Source of the DNA: Paragonimus westermani
Taxonomy: Eukaryota > Platyhelminthes > Trematoda > Plagiorchiida > Troglotrematidae
Length of the DNA stretch: 64,000 bases
Direction: 5' to 3'
Assembly (NCBI GenBank): GCA_008508345.1
Contig: QNGE01003346.1
Span: forward strand, 22,694 to 86,693
Shown here: positions 12,730-44,929 of the stretch, piece after piece
How positions within the stretch are numbered: the stretch's first letter is position 1
How the letters are laid out: every line of letters begins with the position of its first letter
Notes under the pieces: generated by a model
Told to the model about the DNA's origin: nothing
What the model saw: only the letters and a program-made list of their open reading frames with translations
Databases searched by the model: none
Made by a program: the position numbers and the translations under genes

Positions 12730-13389
12730 TTACGTCATCGCATGCACCAAGCACTTAGGCATAGGCTCAGCCAGTTGTTGTCGTGGACACCGATCTGTTC
12801 TGTCGATATAAATGTCAACGCAACTGCAAGTGAACTGATAGATCATAGGTGAGACAGCACATTTCGGTAGATCACGATTATATGTAAGCTGAGTGGAATT
12901 CTTAGTTGTGAGTAGCAACCGCAATGCAGCCGCAGAGTATGTACGAGTTCCAGCAGATTGTAGTTTTTGATTCACGTCAGTTGTTGTAGGAACGCCTTTG
13001 AAAGTTAGGTTCAGAAAGACCTGCTTCTTAGAAGCCGTACTCACGGTAGATTTGATCAACCTTTTCTGGCTGTGAATATTGATAGACTCCACAGGGTGTC
13101 CGTTTGCCAGCAGCACCTCCCTTAATCTCCCCTTCTCTCCTTGCAAACAGTCATCGATGCAGGCCCCCCACGCTCTGTGAGGCATGTTTCGCACCAGCAC
13201 TCGTTTGTAAGTAACTCGCACGAAAGAAGAAAACTGCAAATACTGACCACTCCAAACGACTTTAAGGTGCAGTGAACACTGTAGTGAGCAACTGTGCCGC
13301 TTAGTAAGAAGAATGTCTAGATAAGATAGACTGTTATTTGTCTCCTCTTCTTGAAAAACACAAAGGTTAGGATGGATGGAAGGGACCAA
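12730..13389 (-). pseudogene. PLE RT thumb, linker and GIY-YIG endonuclease
   Basis: A 219-codon open frame. NSLSYLDILLTKRHSCSLQC (residues 19-38) matches the LPFLDVLVTR.DGSLQ block that follows the RT active site. VVWSGQYLQFSSFV and YKRVLV then match the TWTGQYLHFSSFVP..YKR block. Near the C terminus IYQFTCSCVDIYIDRTDR is the entry to the GIY-YIG nuclease, with the Gly of YIG changed to Asp. Sequence below 12730 continues the C-terminal tail in another frame (VNSFQVLLCIRNPELFVFSEA), so the stop at 12730 is a mutation. In a live PLE this nuclease nicks the target for priming. Confidence 0.8.
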
Positions 13390-13441
13390 CTGGCTACGCC
13401 CTTCTACACCAACAACTTGTTTACAGGATGCTCTACCAAAA

Positions 13442-13803
13442 TCAAAGTGAATATTTTATGTACACAAAAATATGAACTCCTTGAAGTAAGCAATTTGAAG
13501 AAGAAAAGGTTAATTTTGAGGGGAAATAAAATCGTATAAAAAATCGGCTGTTTTTTTGGGAGAGAACGTTTGTAAATAAAGAGTCAACATCGGTAGAAAA
13601 ACTATTACTTGGACAAACCGATACATTCTGTAAGGTTTGCACTGGTTCAAAGGATTCATTTTAAACAATGAGTGGTAAGCACTTGACGGAAGGGTGATTT
13701 GTTTATGCACATGATTGGCATTACCGGGACAGCACATTTGCGTATTTTTGAAGTATCTCTTAACGGTGATGTGCAGATTTCGGTTGGTTTCATTTCTCTT
13801 CAT
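13442..13803 (-). pseudogene. PLE reverse transcriptase, central part
   Basis: Two overlapping minus-strand frames share this stretch. One carries LPSSAYHSLFKMNPLN, matching the GSPYHSLA.WLV.LL block of PLE RTs. The other carries STDVDSLFTNVLSQK, matching the catalytic-domain block S.DVDSLFTNVPL.ET. The switch of frame between them is a frameshift mutation. The Asp of SxDV, an RT metal ligand in the family, is retained. Confidence 0.7.
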
Positions 13804-14366
13804 TGTAATCCTGATTTATTCTCGTGTAGCAGTAATATTTGGAGCTTACATGAGATCTGCTTCTCTTTCGACATGTTGTCAAGCGTACTGTCTGTGTGAA
13901 ACTTTCTTTTGCCCGCTAGGATATCTATCATTTTTGACTCATAACCAGTCTTGTTCATGAACACTGTACCGAAGCCTTCGTCTGATAGAAGAAAAACCAA
14001 AAACTTCATTTCTCGCAGTTGTCTCAGAACTTGATAGTGTGCAGGCATCAGGCAGCAAAGCTGAAGCGCAGGTGAGGTCAGGAAATGGTACAAAATATAG
14101 ACTAGCTTCGCGCGGAACCAACCTTCGTTGTCCTGTGACGTTGGGGAGAAGTCCATTGTTTGATCACACAGGTTCTCACGTTGCGCTGGCGTTTGTAATC
14201 GGTCGACTGTTTTGGGAGGAATTTTAAACTCCAGTCCGAGGGATAGGACCGCTAAGTGTGCACGGGTAAACTGAGCCAACGATAAGTTCTGCACGTATTT
14301 CAAGCCATCTGTAATTAATAGGCACGCTATATCTGAACGCAACAAAGTTCCTTGAAGACTGCGCAC
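13800..14366 (-). pseudogene. PLE N-terminal region and RT fingers
   Basis: A 188-codon open frame. LAVLSLGLEFKIPPKTVDRL (residues 38-57) matches the LSLGPKFCIPP start of fluke PLE proteins. FLLSDEGFGTVFMNKTGYESKM (near residues 125-146) matches the LRPDKGSGTVVMN..DY..KM finger block. The usual Pro-Asp-Lys is Ser-Asp-Glu here. The minus-strand frame at 14385-14750 may continue the extreme N terminus (IQPCLTSTLNSLSLICR), with less certainty. Confidence 0.75.
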
Positions 14367-14834
14367 AATCTTGGTTCTAGTATTTTACATTACGATACTA
14401 ACAGATTTCTCAAACTTTATACGACATATCAGTGACAGACTGTTAAGTGTGGATGTGAGACACGGTTGAATCTGCAGATATTGTTCAGCCTTTCTTCTGA
14501 AGCCTTGACATGCGAATTTGCTAGCCTGATATGGTTGACGTTGTTTCTGGACAATTTTTCCTTCAGCAGCAAACGGTAAAATAACGATGGGAATCGACTT
14601 GATCTTACGCACTGTTTGTAGAACCCAATAGTTATATATTTTTATTTGCGAGTTGGAAGTGGCTGTTGTCGTTTCAAATTTCGTTATCCACGATGATAGT
14701 TGATCAACACGTTTTGAAAGTATTACGTCAATACCAACATTTCCCTTCACTTCTGATTCGAATTCAACCGAAACTCAGAATTTCGCAGTTAGGTCCCCAA
14801 AAATTATGACCAAATCTACCGCAGTAACGTACGA

Positions 14835-15064
14835 TGATTTGGTCGTGTCTAATATGAGGACAATGGTGCATTGGTTAGGACGGTTGCCTCAAGAAAATGT
14901 CCGGGGATCTACTGCCGGCCGCGGCAAAGATATGCATTGCTGACAAGCTCTAGTGAGAGCGAAACTCTAGTCTGGTGGTTGTTTTCGAAAGGGATCGACT
15001 GGAAAGTCTGTGAGAAAGCGACAGCTGTGATCAGTTGTGGGTGATACTCAATCTATATGAAAAC
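14835..15064 (+). repeat. Old tRNA-derived SINE with dead hammerhead
   Basis: It follows the full SINE found at 18117-18360: head GATTTGGTCGTGTCTAATAT, a tRNA-like part with A box near 14870 and a degraded B box near 14905, a hammerhead region, then a tail ending ATATGAAAACC. The hammerhead core at 14943 reads CTGACAA in place of CTGANGA, so cleavage is not expected, although stem II (GCTCT/AGAGC) and GAAA survive. No upstream inverted half was found. Confidence 0.7.
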
Positions 15065-15784
15065 CAAAATGTCATACCACACACCGGTAAACAAGTTAAA
15101 TACTCAGAAGCGGTGTTGGCAGATTCTGACGTGCACTGTTTGAGAAATCATGCTTGGGTAGCCAAAAGCATTTGTTTGATGGATTCCATATGACAGAGCG
15201 TTGGGTAGATAAAAAAATCTAAACTCTGTGAGTTGTAGGCGTGGCTGCATAGCTCGACCGGTACGGCGCTTGCCGCATTTGAACGTGTTGTTGCTGGCCT
15301 CAATTCAAATTTAGCAGAAGTTCCGGTCTTTGGCAATAGGATCTGTTCCGAAAAAATACATCAATTGAGTCACTCTACTTATCATTATGCATACCGACAG
15401 TAAAGAAAGCATCATACTACTGTCTCCAGAATGTCACTAATGCGTTATTATCAAACGTCTCTTGTCGCTATGTCTGTTCGTATGAGTTCCGCCATAGTAA
15501 CTCATTAGAACCAAGCGTAATTTCATCGTTCCACCGCTTACATATTTCAAGGTCAGTAGAAGCGAATAACTGTTTCACAGGCATTCGCAGTAGGTTAAAC
15601 CGAAGAATTTACCAGCAGGATGTCTCAATGATGGCATTGCATCAGACCATGATTGAAGGTTTCTGCTAACCGCTACGTTAGATGAGTTAATGTTAAAAAT
15701 ATCGTCCAAAACGTTTGCTGATTTCTGTGATTTTAACTTGGAGGGGTCATCGTGGGGTCATCGACTGAGGTTAACAGAACACTT
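15065..15784. other. No gene recognised
   Basis: Nothing recognised apart from a weak tRNA-like string at about 15238-15310, discussed under rejected items. Confidence 0.4.
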
Positions 15785-16083
15785 GTTGTCTCCTCTCGAG
15801 GCCATTGCGCATTCTGAGCTTCACTCGCAAACGGGCGTGGCTGAGAGTGTATATATTATGAGTTAGTCCTGCCTAGTGTTAGGTCAACGACGCAGTGGTC
15901 AACCTAGTTGCATCATGAGAACATCCAAAATTCCGATCCCTACCGTGGCATGGATGTGCAATACCGACCAGCTCTAACAAGATCAAAATTCGAGTCTAGT
16001 TCTTGTTTTTGAAAGGGGCCGATCGGTGAGTCTATGGGAATCCGACGGCTGTAATCGGTTGTGAGTGTTGTTCAACTTGAAAT
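15785..16083 (+). repeat. Degenerate SINE keeping the composite linker
   Basis: The left part (TTGTCTCCTCTCGAGG near 15785, then CACTCGCAAACGGGCGTGGCTGAG near 15824-15847) matches the linker between the two halves of the composite SINE at 17880-18375. It is followed by the CCTAGTGTTAGGTCAACG head, a tRNA-like part and a mutated hammerhead (CGACCAGCTCT...CAAAATTCGAGTC). It is therefore a 5'-truncated relative of the composite family rather than a plain SINE. Confidence 0.6.
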
Positions 16084-17879: not shown

Positions 17880-17996
17880 TTATACAATTATTGATAAGTA
17901 GTCAGGGATTTGGTTGTGTCAAGTTGAACACTACTCACATTTGATCGCAGCGCTCGCATTCACGTAGATTCTCCAGCCAGTCTCTTCCGAAAAGAA

Positions 17997-18041
17997 ACAC
18001 TAGACTCGAATTTCGCTTTCATCAGAGCTCGTCAGTAGTGC
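17997..18041 (-). ncRNA. Hammerhead ribozyme, inverted SINE half
   Basis: On the minus strand: stem I GCACTA/TAGTGT, core CTGACGA, stem II GCTCT/AAAGC (one C-A mismatch) with loop GATG, GAAA, a 3-bp stem III with CG loop, and C17 at the expected cleavage site. All core bases needed for cleavage are present (position 7 may be any base). The stem II mismatch may reduce activity. Confidence 0.75.
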
Positions 18042-18154
18042 ATATCCTTGTTACTCTGTCTCCTATCGAGACGATCGGGCAACCGGATCATTGCTCACAT
18101 GCGAGAGTGGTTGAGCGTCCAGATTTGATAATTCGGTCGTGCCTAATGTGAGGT

Positions 18155-18228
18155 CAGTGGCGCACGCAGTGGTTAACACGGTTGCCTCATGATTGGATTG
18201 TCCGGAGTTCAAATCCCGGCCGTGGCAA
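18155..18228 (+). promoter_or_regulatory. tRNA-like SINE head (pol III A and B boxes)
   Basis: The A-box region reads GCAGTGGTTAACACGG (about 18166-18181) and the B box GAGTTCAAATCC at 18205-18216, close to the GGTTCRANTCC consensus. A 4-base insertion relative to the 44.3-kb copy (GGCGCACGCAGTGG against GGCGCAGTGG) lies in the A-box region and may weaken it. This internal promoter would transcribe the SINE, including its hammerhead. Confidence 0.7.
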
Positions 18229-18234
18229 GGATAT

Positions 18235-18279
18235 GCACTACTGATGAGCTCTAATGAGAGCGAAACTCGAGTCTGGTGC
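18235..18279 (+). ncRNA. Hammerhead ribozyme, full SINE half
   Basis: All parts of a minimal type I hammerhead are visible. Stem I is GCACTA (18235-18240) with TGGTGC (18274-18279), 6 bp including one G-U. The core is CTGATGA (18241-18247). Stem II is GCTCT/AGAGC with loop AATG (18248-18261), followed by GAAA (18262-18265). Stem III is ACT/AGT with a 2-base CG loop, and C17 is at 18273. The very short stem III is typical of Sm-alpha and PLE hammerheads. Predicted cleavage falls between 18273 and 18274. Confidence 0.9.
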
Positions 18280-18375
18280 ATCTTTTCGAAAGAGGCGGGT
18301 TGCAATGTCTACCTGAATGTGAAGGCTGCGATCAAATGTGAGTGATATTCAGCTTGAAAATTATACAATTATTGA

Positions 18376-21759: not shown

Positions 21760-22815
21760 TAATATCTGGTCGACGTGCCAAAAACGAATTTCCAGGAGTC
21801 GCTTCTAGAATGTACCCATAATGTACAGTTTATTTTTTACGGTGACATTTGTAGACAAATGAAGGCAGTGGAAATGGGGTCACCGATAGGAGAAGTGCTG
21901 ACAGATATTTTTGTGGGCAACTTGAAACGAACGATGCCGAGCACTGTCAGAAATCAATTGGTTTTCTACATTCATTATGATGACAATATTTCCTACATTA
22001 CAAATTCATCTGTCAACATAGCTGATATTTTGGAGGAATTCACTTGCGTACATCCGTTGATCAGTTTTGCATCGGAATTCGAGTCCGATGTGTCTTTCCA
22101 CTTCTTGGACGTATCTCTGAGTGAAACGACTGATGGAAGTTTGAGATGCTCCGTTTATAGTAAGACTACTTGGTCAGACCAGTACAGTAACTTTTATAGT
22201 TCTACCGAATTAAGATATAAACGAAGCTTGGGCAAACGTTTGGCGGATAAAACCAGAAAAATCTGATCAGCAAATGCTTTGGAACGCCAGCTACAGATTG
22301 TAACTCGTACCCTACAAGAGAATAGTTACTCTGACAATTTTGTGACCAAACACATGAAAGCAGTTCATGCATCAGTTAAGATCCAAGGGGTTGGTAAAAA
22401 TGTCTTATGTTCATACTGCTGCCACACGGATGACATACGTTGGCTGAATCACTGACTTATCGGTTACTATTTACCCTAAAAGAACCTTCAACGCAGCCAG
22501 ACCGATTATCTCATTCACCAGGTCACCAGTGATTACTCTAAATCTGAAGGATAAAGTGCCGGTCCACCACTCATCTGAGGTGATTTACTCGTTCGTTTGC
22601 GATTGTTCAGTAGATTGCGTTGGTCGTGCTATTCGACACTTGTCTCGAAGGATCGAAAAAGACCATCCAACACGGATCCTAACAGACGAAAGATAATCAA
22701 TCATGAGTGCCATTCTAGATCAACTGGCTGACAGAAGTCATCAGGCCAACATAGATCGGTTGTTCGCCGTAATCTACACGGTTCCACTGAATCGGTCAAA
22801 ACCTGTTCACCAGTG
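21760..22815 (+). mobile_element. Penelope-like element, family A, 3' half
   Basis: A 5'-truncated PLE beginning inside the RT (LLECTHNVQFIF..DICRQ), running through palm, thumb and linker to the GIY-YIG endonuclease. In a second frame past 22266, LERQLQIVTRTLQENSYSDN and FVTKHMKAVHA give the linker. ITLNLKDKVPVHHSSEVIYS and FVCDCSVDCVGRAIRHLSRR then give the nuclease entry, with YIG read as CVG. SAILDQLADRSHQANIDRL ends the domain. It is dead through frameshifts and altered active-site residues. It lies about 500 bases downstream of a family B element on the same strand. Confidence 0.8.
21775..22266 (+). pseudogene. PLE-A reverse transcriptase palm and thumb
   Basis: 163 codons. QESLLECTHNVQFIFYGDIC (residues 7-26), then VEMGSPIGEVLTDIFVGNL (32-50), match the LLLCT.NVQF.FDG.IYRQ and VAMGSPLGPVLADIFVG.LE blocks. 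The active site reads HYDDNI where the family has RYVDDI, so a residue has been lost and the geometry changed. FHFLDVSLSETTDGSLRC and TTWSDQYSNFYS follow as the LPFLDV..TR..DGSL and TWT.QY.NF.S blocks. The chosen Met is only the first in frame; the true protein began far upstream. Confidence 0.8.
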
Positions 22816-28771: not shown

Positions 28772-30797
28772 CGTGGTATGCTGCTGTGATGTCGGTGCCG
28801 TTTTAGCTTACGTTTGTGTAAGTCGGGTGCATGGCTTACTGGGCCTTTGGCGCACGCTTGTTCATGTTGTTTCTCTTTACAGGACTTTTGTTGGACCCCC
28901 TACTTCGGAATAACTCTGTTCCCCGGTGCCCCCGGATTGCCTCGAATTCGGTCCACGGATAGTCTGAGCGGAATCGGCTGGCCTGCATGTTACAAGAGCC
29001 CATGTTAGCTTGTTGTTTTAGATGGATTGGTTTACCCTTTTCGGTGCTACCTCGTTTGCACATTACTCGACGATAACTATTTGTTTCTTCACATCTTAAC
29101 GGTGAGGAAACCACGTTTTAGTGTCCGGTATTTCTAGCCGTCATACTATCCTTAAATGTAAGTGAAGGTTCGGTATTGTAAAATTGACCAAATTTAGCTT
29201 GGCTGGCAATTGTAAGTTCTGCTGCCGATAAAACAATTACCTAAGACAAGGGCTCTGTTTGATGTAGAACTTTTGGTTCATCAGACTACCGGATCATCTA
29301 GTCTCGTGACTTCTTTCTTGACAGGCTTACACCAATCATTTCTGTAATAAAAGAACGACCAGAATTGTGAAGCCACGTAACACGTTTTGCTTGGGTAGCT
29401 ATTGTAGATAGGAAAGTGTAGACAGTTGCAAAAAACATTCGCGATTATACCATACAATTGTGCTGTGTATCACAAGTAGGAACAGGCTTGATACGAGATA
29501 GGTGCGCTACTTTGGTTTTTTATGCACATCGATACACTCAGACGAAACAAGCACAAGCTTCACCGTTTCGATTACACGGCTGTTTCCAGTTTGGCCGTTG
29601 GGGCAGTTCACTCCTGGGGACGTCTAATGTTGGTGAGACACTGAGCCCTACAGTAGCACCACGATTCGAGACTATGTTTGCAGATCTTAACACGCTCATT
29701 CTTTTATGAAGTATAAACTCTGAACTATTTACAAATTGTGAACAGATACACTGCCTACTTTGGAATTTACAAACTTGTGTCAATTTGGAGGAGTGAACGA
29801 GGTAACAGAAGTGTTTTTTGTCTGACTTTAGAAATAGATCCTCAAGTGCCATCTAATATAGTCAATTAGTTCATATTGAAGACATAAAAAACGTTTTCCA
29901 TACAAACATTAAAATGTATATCGTTGGTAAGTTGACTGAAGTGCAAGCTCCATCTCTGAAGAGCATGCTAGTAGTATTGTTCTTCATCAGGTCTGGTATG
30001 CTGACGTTTGGTTGACTACTGTCTTACTCTCCTACCTACCCTCATGCACTGTGTACACGTGCTACGCACTCAACTGTATATGTCGACTCATCCTTCAGTG
30101 TATGTCATTCGATTTGTCAAGATAACTTCAATTTCATATTTAAGTCAAACAGATACGAACCACCTGAACTGTGATGGTGAATGTTTTTCCGCTTGAGGTT
30201 GCATTCCCTAATCGTACGGTGGTGGAACAACACTCACCCAGTTCACATTTTTTCCTGATTATTGGAGCAAACAAAATACCGCTGATGAATCTGGATGTCG
30301 TGTGTTCCAGAACAATCCAACCGAGGCTGGAACTGTTGGTTAAAACTCATTTTCATTTATTTCAGTCACGGACTGCTGTGCAACATCCACTGCGCAGCCC
30401 TGGCAATGGTATCAAGATAAGATGTCGATTTGAGCTCCGAATTATTCCTTGTTTCGTTGGAACCGAGTTGTACTATGAGTCGCCTATCTCGTCTTGTAAA
30501 GCGCACTCGTCGTCCCCTTCTCAATCAAAATGCAAGAGTAGCTCTAGACCACCAAAGTCCTCTGACGATTTGTCACTTGCTTATACGCTAAATTCTTACC
30601 TCATTACCAGTCGTTTTGTTAGTTTCTTCGTGAAATGGCGTGGGCTCTGGTTACATGACACTTATCATACAGACCACTGGAAATGCAGACAACCCTTCGT
30701 AACTCAGTAACAACGTTAACTTTAAGGGAAAATCACAAAATGTTACGCTTATGCACTTTTATCAACGCTACTTCATAAGCTATTGCGAGTACTGATG
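28772..30797. other. No recognised gene; two unexplained open frames
   Basis: The longest frames are 179 codons (plus 30171-30710, Ser-rich near residues 110-135) and 104 codons (minus 29538-29852). Neither shows a domain, repeat or signal peptide that I recognise. See findings for the longer one. Confidence 0.4.
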
Positions 30798-31275
30798 AAT
30801 AATCGGGGATTTGATCAATTTCAATAGTACATATGCTTGCCACGACTAGGATTTGAACTCTGAACACGCTTTTATGGGTTAGATATCTTTTGAATCAAGG
30901 ATTGTTTGTGGGGCCCCAATAAGCCAAATCTCCTTCTCAGCCTGCCCTCGCAAATATGAATTTAAACTGATATCAGTTATGGATTTTGTCGTACATTTCT
31001 GCTCTCCTGCAAATTTCTGCCGTTACAAATTAGTTTTTCTCCTGATGGTTGGGAACAGTGGTGGTGTTTTTCTCCTGTCCATCCTCTTTTGTAAGCAGCT
31101 TCATCCCTAATAAGACCCGATCCCTCCATCACGCATGCACTAGAGACATGCGGTGGCATGAATATGCACTAGTGACGAGCTCTAGTTAGAGCGAACCTCA
31201 AAACAGGTTGACTGAAAAATCTATTTGAATGCAAAGATTACGATCATATGGTGAGTGACACTCAACATGAAATTA
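30798..31275 (+). repeat. Degenerate composite SINE
   Basis: The left end AATCGGGGATTTGATCAATTTC resembles the 5' end of the composite element at 17.9 kb. It runs directly into an inverted tRNA-like part (TGCTTGCCACGACTAGGATT TGAACTC, reverse B box at about 30849-30861). The right part (about 31143-31275) is a forward hammerhead-plus-tail segment. Its core GTGACGA (first C mutated to G) and GAAC in place of GAAA mean it cannot cleave. The middle 250 bases are unrelated or too diverged. Confidence 0.5.
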
Positions 31276-32790
31276 ACCATATGTCCGACTATTATGTGTA
31301 GTACGTTTTTGATGCAAAGCATTCGGACACAATTTAACTCACAGCATTCCGAAAGCATTTGTTCGTCTATTACGAAAATCGTTTGATGTTGATATATGTA
31401 TGGTAGACAAACGATTTGAAATAATTCTCCAAACTTTGAATGACTGACGAAAATGTCTTTACATAAAGCGCAGTTCTCTTTGCAGAACTTGATCATATTC
31501 AGATGCAATTGTACTAATGTTTTACTCCGAATTAGGAAACTCATACATTGACCATTTCGTAACACCCGCCTGGTTCTCTCCTATGCTAACAAATGTGCCC
31601 AACTATCCACCAGCAGCAAAGAATCGGCGTTCAGCAGTAACGTCGGTGGATTCCATACAGGTATTCATACCTCTCTTTGTCCTATTCTACTCTCTCTCTC
31701 CCTTGATGCAGTCACGTTGTCCTTATCTGCAGAGATTTTTGAACAGAATGACCGAAAAATTAGGGTCGAAACTGTCACCACACTTTCTATCTTTAACGTT
31801 GGTGAACAAGCATTTACACTGAGGACATTCTACTCTTCGGTAAAATTGATTTTATGTAGTAGTACACAGTCTGCACAATTTTACGATTTTACGTGATGTC
31901 CCATTCTAGCAGTATCCGTGAGCGCAATCTTTGCACAAATCTAATCTGTGGGGATAGCAATAACTCGTCGAAATGTCACTTTTTTAGATAGTGAGCGTTA
32001 CACATTTCAGTCTTGCGTGTTGTCTGTTGCATAGATTTCTATCTCGCCTATCCCCTTGTCCATGGTAGGGGTTATCTCTAGACTTGTTTAATGTTTGCAC
32101 GTTAGTTTCATGAATTTGTTTTTCCGTAGCTTAACAGTGTAAATAATCACAGTCGGAACCCTGTGTGGGCTGGAACTTATCCTCGACAGACACGAGAGTA
32201 GAAAAGAATATGGATTTAGTGTAGATCTTGTTGTGGACGACAGATAAAAAGATGTTCGGAAAATCATATTCAGTTCAAGTATAACACTACCTCATAATTT
32301 GTTACTGTAGTAAAATTGTATCTACAGAGTGTTGAACTATACGAGGGAGCCAGTAATTCAAAGGTGAACGAATGTGATACATTTAAACACATAAAGCGGT
32401 GTAAAATTTCAAAATGAGCCACGGTTTAACAGGCATCATTAGACACGTGAACATTGAGCACCACATTCTACCCAGTTCTCGACTGATGGATCAAACGTAA
32501 AGTTCGTCGATCAGTTAGAACACATTTTTGAAATTCACTCTTGTAAAACTGGTAGAATGCTAACAGTTGGGATGTGGATTATATCTGGAGAGATCTGGGG
32601 GCGGGTTGCACTTAGAATAAACAGATTGCGCGTTTGTGACGGGATAAAATTGGCCCAACAATTGAAATGCCAGTGCCTAGGTGAACGAGGTTATTAGTGA
32701 ACAGATCTGACCAATATGCTCGATCACCAGCGGATGACGTATATCTGACTATGAGTATTTCTGAATATTGATGAACATTATTCACATAAA
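31276..32790. other. No gene recognised
   Basis: Unrecognised open frames only (114 codons on the minus strand at 31221-31565, overlapping the SINE tail; 101 codons on the plus strand at 31517-31822). Confidence 0.4.
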
Positions 32791-34621: not shown

Positions 34622-34931
34622 GATGCGGATATCTTACAGGATCAGTGATATCCGTTTTGCATGTTTAAAGCTAATTCAAGAAATCTTCGTTATTAGTCCA
34701 AATCTTAGTTGCGCTTGCATGCCCGTACTGGTTATCATCAAATGGAGTTACACAACCTGTCTGGCTTCGAATTTCAATTTGTTGCAGATTACATGACGTT
34801 CAGCATAGCATTTTGAAAAGTATGCATAGCATCTGAGGAAATTCCACAGAATTTCTGTTTCCTTTCCAAGGAATTATAATTAAAATAACTGTGTTAGTTT
34901 GTCAGTCGTTACCATCTCCATTACCTACAAA

Positions 34932-35158
34932 GGAAAGCGGTTGAGTTTTCAGTTATGGCAATTCGGTCTTGTCTAATCAGGGGTCAAAGGCGCAGTTGTC
35001 CAATGAAAGCCGGGGTTCAAATCCAGGCCATGACAAATACAATCAGTAATGATGAAGCGTAGCTAGTGTGAAATTCTCTTTGAAAGAGGTTGCCTGGAAA
35101 GTCCATGTGAATGCCAGCGATACGGTGACTCGTGAATGACGTTTAACCTGAAAGTGAA
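34932..35158 (+). repeat. Old tRNA-derived SINE
   Basis: It has the linker end and head (GGTTGAG...AATTCGGTCTTGTCTAAT), an A-box region (GGCGCAGTTGTCC), a B box (GGGTTCAAATCC, 35011-35022), a badly decayed hammerhead zone (AGTAATGATGAAGCGTAGCT) and the tail ending ACCTGAAAGTGAA. No upstream inverted half was recognised. Confidence 0.65.
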
Positions 35159-35489
35159 TCAATAGTATATTGCATTAAAAGAAGTTTCTGCCGCGTAAAA
35201 ATGGCCTAATAGCAGGTTCAACGTATTTTGTTCAATGCCACACTGCTTTAAACGTAATGATACGGATTGTCTAACATGGTCCCCTTCGTATTCGAAGAAA
35301 TTTTGCGAAAATCCCCACTGAATCATATCCACATGCGTTGACAAAAGCCCATTGTCAATGTCGTTATTGAAACACATCTGGTATAGTGTGTGTGTGTGAA
35401 CATTCACAAAGCTTTCGTCCTAGTTTAGATCTCGTCAATGCAGCCTCTATCTGTTTAGTTGCCGAGAGGTAGGGGTTTCCTTTCCTTAT
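35159..35489. other. No gene recognised
   Basis: Contains a short TG run near 35384-35397 only. Confidence 0.4.
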
Positions 35490-41889: not shown

Positions 41890-42900
41890 CAGGAGATCTC
41901 ACAGGAATACGACTTCGTATGTGAACACAGACCGGGCAGACGACACTCGAACGCTGACTCATTATCGAGGCGTCCTGCAAGCAATCACGGTGACTATTCG
42001 TCTTGTACTATGCAACATGTTGCGCTGATCAACCTACAGGGTGCAGAATATGGCCGATGGCAGCGGGCTCAAGCAACAGATCCTGAGACTGCGCTAATCT
42101 ACGAAAGGTGCCAGAACAGTGGTGACAGACCAAAAACCAAAGAAATGGAAGGAAAGAGCTATGAATCTCGCTGCCTTTGGGCGTTATGGAAACAGCTCAA
42201 GATGGCAGAGGGAGAATTATTCATCCAATACGGACCCGTTCAAATGAGAAGGATCGTGGTCCCTCAATTTATGATACGTGGCGTTCTAACAGACTTGCAC
42301 CCCGAGCTCCGAAATGCGGGAATAAACAAGTTGGAAGCGGCCGCACGACAACGATTTTGGTGGCTGCATCAGCGAAGGGATGTCAGGTTGTCATGTCAAT
42401 CTTACGAGAAATGCGGCACTTTCAAAGGCCCTCGAATAGGACGTCGAGCACCGTTGTAAGTTATGGCCGCAGGATATCCTAACGAGTTGGTCGGTGTAGA
42501 TATTGTGGGGCCGTTGCCCGAGACACCCCGAAACAACCGGTACATCTTGGTCCTGGTAGATTACTTCACCAAATGGTGTGAAGCTGTCCCGCTTGCACAA
42601 GTGGGGACATCTACAGTAGCAACAGCCATTTTCGACCACTGGGTGTGCTTGTGGGGAGCCCCAGCACAAATCCATTCAGACCAAGGCTCTTGTTTGGGAG
42701 CTCTTTGGTTCGCGAAATGTGTAGGCTACAGGAGTAAATAAGACACGAACCACAGCTTACCACCCTCAGGGCAATGGGCAAGTAGAAAGGACGAATCGGT
42801 CCCTCAAAAATCTCCTCAAGCCTTTCGCAGAGCAGAGTGTCACTGAATGGGGCTTAGCTATGCCAAAATGACTGTTAGCTTATCGTAGTGCCATTCACAC
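41890..42900 (+). pseudogene. Gypsy integrase, zinc-binding and catalytic core
   Basis: Same frame as RNase H. The zinc-binding region holds VLTDLHPELRNAGINKLEAA and SCQSYEKCGTFKGP. The second His and first Cys of the HHCC set look mutated (Arg and Tyr). A TAA at 42457-42459 precedes MAAGYPNELVGVDIVGPLPE. Catalytic Asp residues fall at 42499-42501 (VDIVGP) and 42679-42681 (HSDQG). After a stop and frameshift near 42740 the core continues TTAYHPQGNGQVERTNRSLK, with the catalytic Glu at 42785-42787, so the DDE triad is retained at codon level. Confidence 0.88.
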
Positions 42901-44130: not shown

Positions 44131-44220
44131 CTCTGGAAATTTTCAAGTTGACCATCGATCACATTTGATCGCAGCGTTCCCATTCAGATAGACTTTCCAG
44201 CCAGCCTCTTTCGAAAAGAA

Positions 44221-44265
44221 GCACTAGACTCCAGTTTCGCTCTCATTAGAGCTCGTCAGTAGTGC
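44221..44265 (-). ncRNA. Hammerhead ribozyme, full SINE half, copy 2
   Basis: On the minus strand: stem I GCACTA/TAGTGC, six perfect pairs. The core is CTGACGA, stem II GCTCT/AGAGC with AATG loop, then GAAA. Stem III is ACT/AGT with GG loop and C17. This is the best-formed hammerhead in the window. The predicted cut on the minus strand lies between plus-strand positions 44227 and 44226. Confidence 0.92.
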
Positions 44266-44275
44266 ATATCCTTGC

Positions 44276-44345
44276 CACGGCCGGGATTTGAACTCCGGAC
44301 ATTCCAATCATGAGGCAACCGTGTTAACCACTGCGCCATTGACCT
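44276..44345 (-). promoter_or_regulatory. tRNA-like SINE head, copy 2
   Basis: The reverse B box GGATTTGAACTC lies at 44284-44295 and the reverse A box GTGTTAACCACTGCGCCA at about 44321-44338. Spacing and sequence are close to pol III tRNA promoters, and it lacks the A-box insertion seen at 18.16 kb. Confidence 0.75.
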
Positions 44346-44532
44346 CACATTAGGCACGACCGAATCATCAAATCTGAACGCTCAACCACTCTCGCTTGTG
44401 AGCAATGATCAGGTTGCCCGATCGTCTCGAGAGGAGACACAGTTACTGCCTGTTAACTCCAATCGATAACCCCGCGATGAGGATTTCCGAGGTAGGTCGA
44501 GATCACTGAACTCATTAAACCTGCAAGGATGT

Positions 44533-44577
44533 GTACTACTGATGAGCTCTAATGAGAGCAAAACTCGAGTCCAGTGC
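44533..44577 (+). ncRNA. Mutated hammerhead, truncated SINE half, copy 2
   Basis: The core CTGATGA, stem II GCTCT/AGAGC and stem III ACT/AGT are present. GAAA has become AAAA (loss of the general-base G12) and stem I is broken (GTACTA against CAGTGC). Cleavage is not expected. Confidence 0.7.
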
Positions 44578-44929
44578 TTCTTTTCGAAAGAGGCTGGCTG
44601 CAACGTCGTCTATCTGAATGCGAAGGCTGCGATCAAATATGATTGATGGTCAACTTGAAAACAAACCAAATCCTCGACTACTCATGATTAAGCTCTGGAG
44701 ATTTTCGACATCTGTCTTCGACGTTTATCTTGTTCGTAATTGCATCCGCATTTTTTTTACATCCTTCTGAGATTATGATCCATATTTGTCCCACTACTGT
44801 CCTGAAATCTTCGGGAGCCATGGAATCTTTCTGTTTCTCAGACTGCCTCTGCTGGCATTATTGGATGCGCACACTACGCGCAACTAAGTGATAAGCCTGA
44901 GTCTGCTACGACAGATTCAGCAAGCTATA

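Follow-up and report, generated by a model that had tools for sequence, protein, structure and literature searches.

The closest described parallels to the insertions reported here come from Penelope-like elements (PLEs). Insertions of Penelope itself comprise pLTRs inverted head to head, one of which bears a 31-bp tail, and have target duplications of 8-10 bp (PMC3846280). The purified PLE protein of an anole cuts and extends both strands of an AT-rich target (5'-ATT-3'), and reverse transcription begins at two adjacent sites that lie inside the RNA within an AC-rich stem loop; the nucleotides separating these start sites make up the 30-40 bp 'tail' of genomic copies (PMC11167929). The same source reports the hammerhead to be dispensable for insertion, and observed no start-site difference between the top and bottom strands (PMC11167929). 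Retrozymes have in turn been proposed to be mobilised by PLEs or by Terminons (PMC7761336).

We analysed a 64,000-nucleotide stretch of Paragonimus westermani DNA (hereafter, the window), in which a 466-bp insert (17895-18360) lies between two target duplications. These are copies of a 15-bp direct repeat without a mismatch, TTATACAATTATTGA, at 17880-17894 on the left and 18361-18375 on the right, with no strand assigned. The duplication scores 15, while among 300 random pairings of flanks the 99th percentile was 8 and the highest score 12, bearing out the perfect target duplication claimed in a reading made from the window's sequence only. The insert consists of two copies of one SINE placed head to head, with positions M431 to M267 of the SINE monomer joined to M95 to M402. 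The inverted arm (17888-18050, minus strand) runs from its outer end at M431, termed site B below, to M267, and its alignment enters the left target duplication by 7 bp, a near-microhomology as judged by eye. The forward arm (18050-18361, plus strand) runs from M95 to its outer end at M402, termed site A, and the two arms show 83% complementarity across 132 nt (17919-18050 against 18226-18357). The sequence-only reading had divided the insert into a truncated inverted SINE, a linker and a full forward SINE. Its truncated inverted unit holds (M267-M431), whereas the forward unit is not full, covering M95-M402 of a monomer of ~431 bp, and the linker as a separate module is ruled out: the 100 bp between the arms belong to the forward arm as its own 5' part and are 94% identical over 98 bp to a second copy in the window. 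No open reading frame of at least 130 aa overlaps the 466-bp insert, and the reverse transcriptase plus GIY-YIG frame of an autonomous PLE was not found there.

The second copy in the window is likewise a head-to-head pair (44139-44691). Its long arm (44139-44528, minus strand) covers M13-M402 and ends at site A, its short arm (44523-44691, plus strand) covers M266-M431 and ends at site B, and the two overlap at the junction by 6 bp, CCTTGC. The flanking target duplication is 14 bp long with one mismatch (44131-44144 and 44693-44706, no strand assigned). Older, diverged pieces of the SINE lie at 30790-30866 (minus), 31150-31291 (plus) and 34919-35162 (plus); the first two face each other head to head across about 280 bp. 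An Integrase_H2C2 domain at 42010-42459 (plus strand, E 4e-7) probably comes from an LTR-type retroelement.

Monomer coordinates were taken from two tandem arrays, L023 and L024, in which SINE units of ~431 bp follow one another in exact register with a 431-bp period. An internal 25-nt pattern of the SINE has 7,632 matches with at most 2 mismatches in the 823-Mb genome. At C3447:28470-30663, six pattern matches spaced 433 bp apart form a longer in-register array that is possibly a source of multimeric RNA. We annotated 90 loci (L001-L090) together with the second window copy. Loci L001-L040 were retrieved through their resemblance to the insert at 17895-18360 and are therefore biased toward such pairs. 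The remaining 50 (L041-L090), hereafter the sample, are perfect 25-mer matches taken in contig order, a choice that is blind to structure and favours younger copies. Arms were paired when the gap between them was up to 35 bp, and L073, whose head-to-head partner exceeds that gap, was therefore counted as unpaired, as was L064, which has a run of N at its left edge. L034, an unpaired copy at one of the listed places, was omitted from the sample, and L038 was dropped as the same duplicated locus as L037, giving 45 pairs in all.

Head-to-head pairs were present at 23 of the 50 sample loci, three of which (L052, L053 and L080) depend on inverted pieces of only 16-38 nt. Tail-to-tail pairs were absent from the sample (0/50), and direct tandem pieces occurred at 12 loci. 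Each pair was scored for its own target duplication: a score of at least 8 was reached by 17 of the 23 sample pairs, compared with 6 of the 27 unpaired copies (P 0.0005, Fisher's exact test) and with 1% of 300 random flanks, leaving 21 of the 27 unpaired copies without a duplication of that score. Among loci scoring at least 8 the median duplication is 12 bp, and duplications are 73% A+T, compared with 56% for the loci over their first 200 bases. The sample therefore shows the PLE-type arrangement of a head-to-head inverted partner within one target duplication. At two loci, L003 and L036, the head-to-head joint contains or adjoins an N base, perhaps a mark that the palindrome left in the assembly.

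The outer 3' ends of the arms fall mostly at two sites. Among 135 arms, 61 end at M396-407 (site A), 60 at M425-431 (site B) and 14 elsewhere, so that the family has two 3' end sites 29 nt apart, as in the tail of a PLE; the intervening stretch, M403-431, is 76% A+C as against 47% for the whole monomer. Within a pair, the two sites tend to be used once each. Of the 15 sample pairs in which both ends could be typed, 13 are A/B, one is A/A and one is B/B (P ~0.003 under independence); among the unpaired copies of the sample, 15 end at A, 11 at B and one elsewhere, so that about half of the pairs would be mixed by chance. In the other 8 of the 23 sample pairs, one outer end is internal and falls at neither site. 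Across all 45 pairs, a set that includes the biased loci L001-L040, 28 are A/B, two A/A, two B/B, and 13 have an internal end.

The insert was also compared with Rfam models. The right arm matches the type I hammerhead HH9 (RF02275) at 18223-18296 on the plus strand with 33.9 bits (E 1e-6), and the left arm matches HH9 at 17980-18053 on the minus strand with 19.8 bits (E 0.036), its stem II having one non-standard pair. Both fall below the Rfam gathering score of 52 for RF02275, and no match in an Rfam scan of the window attains a gathering score. In the tandem array L024, all three units match RF02275 at 35.3 bits (E 1e-6), also under 52. By eye, stem III of the SINE hammerhead is palindromic and very short. 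In isolated folds, the right hammerhead is slightly more stable than shuffled sequences (z -1.4; 16 of 200 equally good), the left one is not (z +0.9; 161/200), and the consensus hammerhead in isolation folds no better than its shuffles (z +0.5; 133/200). The claim of a hammerhead in each half thus finds matches on both strands, with scores under the gathering score and little support from isolated folds. A whole hammerhead (M276-322) is present on both arms in 22 of the 45 pairs and in 8 of the 23 sample pairs.

The expectation that the insert could form a hairpin was confirmed by prediction: a transcript of 17896-18360 is predicted to fold into a single long hairpin (-250 kcal/mol, z -17.4), which makes double-stranded RNA from such a transcript plausible. 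In this minimum-energy fold, the arms pair with one another over most of their length, hammerheads included, and self-cleavage of a transcript that spans the whole insert therefore appears unlikely. Motifs resembling the A box (18170-18181, plus strand) and B box (GGAGTTCAAATCC, 18204-18216, plus strand) of a Pol III promoter were recognized by eye; as for a tRNA-related head, ARAGORN returned 0 genes and the Rfam search of L024 gave no tRNA match.

The hammerhead is predicted to cut after M314. None of the 135 arms has its 5' end at M309-320, and two have it at M321, which argues for uncut templates and led us to reject hammerhead-cut RNA as the template. Two outer 3' ends, in L036 (M308) and L048 (M312), lie beside the hammerhead cut, which would fit the use of a cleaved RNA end; two cases are too few to interpret.

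How the pairs arise can be judged from their junctions and arms. The sequence-only reading had proposed that the insert moved as a fold-back unit, and had held that varying junctions would mean two chance insertions. A 27-nt pattern spanning the junction at 17895-18360, searched with up to 3 mismatches in 823 Mb, has one match, namely itself, and the 45 pairs fall into 44 distinct junctions (4-nt bins), so that the pairs were joined independently and a moving fold-back unit is not borne out. The junctions do vary, as two unrelated insertions or an assembly artefact would have it, and the N bases at or beside the joints of L003 and L036 might be read in the same way. Yet varying junctions do not imply chance: the target duplications shared by the arms of 17 of the 23 sample pairs, together with the end-site rule, point to one event per pair, as the sequence-only reading had also maintained, and the pairs are spread over many contigs. 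We therefore reject two chance insertions and consider this reading, artefact included, highly improbable. In favour of an inverted dimer as the transposing unit, the junction of the second window pair, which joins M13 to M266 (13|266), recurs: of 28 matches to its pattern, itself included, 17 have the inverted-arm form by eye, the remaining 11 resembling an ordinary unit boundary. Four of the 16 other places were retrieved, of which three (L119, L120 and L121) are readable pairs and one (L122) was unusable. The duplications of L119 and L120 differ from one another and from that of the second window pair, as judged partly by eye, and L121 has no visible target duplication. Between different 13|266 pairs, B arms differ from B arms at 14-18 of 135-137 positions, and B arms from A arms at 10-16 where similar numbers of positions were compared. 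Like arms of different pairs thus do not cluster, which indicates that the 13|266 junction, sitting on the 6-bp microhomology, arose repeatedly. On junction diversity and arm divergence we reject the dimer as a moving unit for the pairs examined, and rate it very improbable overall. Microhomology at junctions is possible more generally: an exact-match count was usable in 9 of the 45 pairs and negative in 7 of these 9, and BLAST pieces overlap by at least 2 in 24 of the 45, overlaps that are inflated by extension.

Two further explanations place both arms in one event of another kind. In a snap-back event, a single cDNA or an antisense template would prime itself and the second arm would be copied from the first; self-priming has been offered for Penelope (PMC3846280), and the presence of head-to-head pairs and lack of tail-to-tail pairs in the sample fit it. 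Arms within a pair also agree at 175 of 239 polymorphic columns (73%, against a null mean of 63%, sd 2.5%, with 0 of 2000 shuffles as high) and have 34 rare variants in common (null mean 7.7, 0 of 500 shuffles as high), so that the two arms of a pair would frequently derive from one source or from related ones. A copied arm should end like its template, however, and 28 of the 32 typed pairs end at different sites. Moreover, divergence from the consensus differs between the arms in 10 of 40 pairs at P < 0.05, four of them at P < 0.01, where about 2 and 0.4 would be expected; pairs with an arm under 40 nt were dropped from this test, leaving 40 of 45. The second window pair is among the unequal ones, and in the first the arms agree at only 2 of 7 polymorphic columns. 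We thus judge snap-back to be unlikely. Strongly unequal arms were seen in L035 (9.4% versus 1.7%), L009, L010 and the window pair at 44139-44691, as if transcripts of an old and a young copy had been inserted together. In twin priming of L1, inversions arise with short microhomology joints and target duplications; classically, the 5' segment of the same RNA is inverted and one 3' end remains. Twin priming during LINE-mediated insertion of the SINE would yield the inversions, short joints and duplications, but 3' ends are found here on both arms, the arms overlap across much of the monomer, and inspection by eye revealed neither a poly(A) nor a simple-repeat tail. We hold this explanation to be quite improbable, less credible still than snap-back.

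PLEs themselves are well represented in this genome. Their frames are abundant, one being 646 aa long, and the best-named relatives of the PLE protein are from flukes (Dicrocoelium, Trichobilharzia, Paragonimus and Schistosoma). Relics of Penelope-like reverse transcriptase genes lie in the window at 12730-14366 (minus) and 21775-22266 (plus); a Pfam search of these relics gave no match, and identity to PLE frames reaches 69% for 12730-13389 and 56% for 21775-22266. Just past the first relic lie remnants of the SINE, at 14833-15051 and 15749-16082. Among the matches listed, PLE pairs within 4 kb of one another are head-to-head in 10 cases, direct in two and tail-to-tail in none (n = 12, by eye). 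In four PLE loci with an inverted piece that were inspected by eye, both end sites occur only in L095, where a 12-bp duplication is also present and just one side carries a tail (~25 nt); in L092, L097 and L099, one of the ends is internal.

The PLE 3' regions were compared with the SINE. A first downstream set was of limited use, as six of its seven loci began beyond the 3' UTRs and only L107 contained one. In a set of 11 PLE 3' regions, sampling part of the PLE families, none matches the SINE at E <= 0.5, and a PLE partner with the tail of the SINE was not found among them. A pattern search found hammerhead cores in 5 of the 11, and in L107, whereas the Rfam hammerhead search of the 3' regions of L095, L097 and L100 gave none at E <= 5. 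The core patterns of L107, L109, L110, L112, L116 and L118, which are matches by pattern only, differ in sequence from the SINE. At other PLE loci, SINE pieces are only weak, lie downstream or were inserted separately.

We propose that the insert is probably one product of a hammerhead SINE mobilised in trans by a PLE. A PLE protein would cut an AT-rich target on its two strands, at positions separated by about 12 bp, and both target 3' ends would then prime the copying of SINE RNA into cDNA, starting from site A (M~402) on one strand and from site B (M~431) on the other. The growing cDNAs would meet head to head and then be joined, possibly via a few shared bases, and gap filling would create the target duplication. 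The RNA template would be a head-to-tail multimer or a circle, since copies cross the unit boundary in register. The enzyme, the priming of both strands and the joining step are inferred. A more specific version, to which we give an even chance, is that a PLE ribonucleoprotein has two active halves which in a single event prime the two target strands, with site A as the start for one half and site B for its partner; the pair would then be a normal product of transposition and not an accident, and the SINE would be exploiting this mechanism and leaving a record of it in thousands of copies.

In the account of PMC11167929, later steps of PLE insertion are left for validation, and the SINE family offers thousands of small, readable insertions on which to examine them. 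It would also add a testable point that we did not find in that account (PMC11167929), namely that when both strands are primed the start sites A and B tend to be used once each. In its discussion of animal retrozymes, PMC7761336 leaves their autonomous mover undecided; this SINE family shows the PLE-like signature of a tail and an inverted partner, and its ends and pairs support the retrozyme-PLE link proposed there (PMC7761336). If the two-halved version of the proposal is true, the SINE would offer a natural readout of how PLEs work, as well as a missing link that ties hammerhead retrozymes to them. SINE pairs are in addition a source of inverted repeats, and possibly of double-stranded RNA, in a fluke genome. 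In the open-licence literature searched, which omits most subscription papers, we found hammerhead SINEs described neither with PLE-type ends nor with paired insertions.

Compared with known systems, the family most resembles the Penelope and Poseidon PLEs, with which it shares the head-to-head, 5'-truncated inverted partner and partial direct tandems (PMC3846280; PMC11167929), as well as a one-sided tail of ~30 nt, duplications of ~10 bp, a pair of neighbouring start sites inside the RNA and the presence of a hammerhead. Unlike PLEs, it has no open reading frame, a unit of 431 bp, thousands of pattern matches and, by eye, Pol III-like boxes, and its sequence is not shared with the 11 PLE 3' regions. 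The SMalpha SINE of Schistosoma is also a short SINE-like fluke repeat with a type I hammerhead, a likeness drawn from its description and not from its sequence, and the passages of PMC8490949 that describe it do not mention paired insertions. With metazoan non-LTR retrozymes the family has in common a type I hammerhead whose stem III is weak, a lack of coding capacity and a tandem arrangement of units a few hundred bp long (150-450 bp; PMC7229834); its Pol III-like boxes, identified by eye, set it apart from retrozymes, which seem to be promoterless (PMC7761336).
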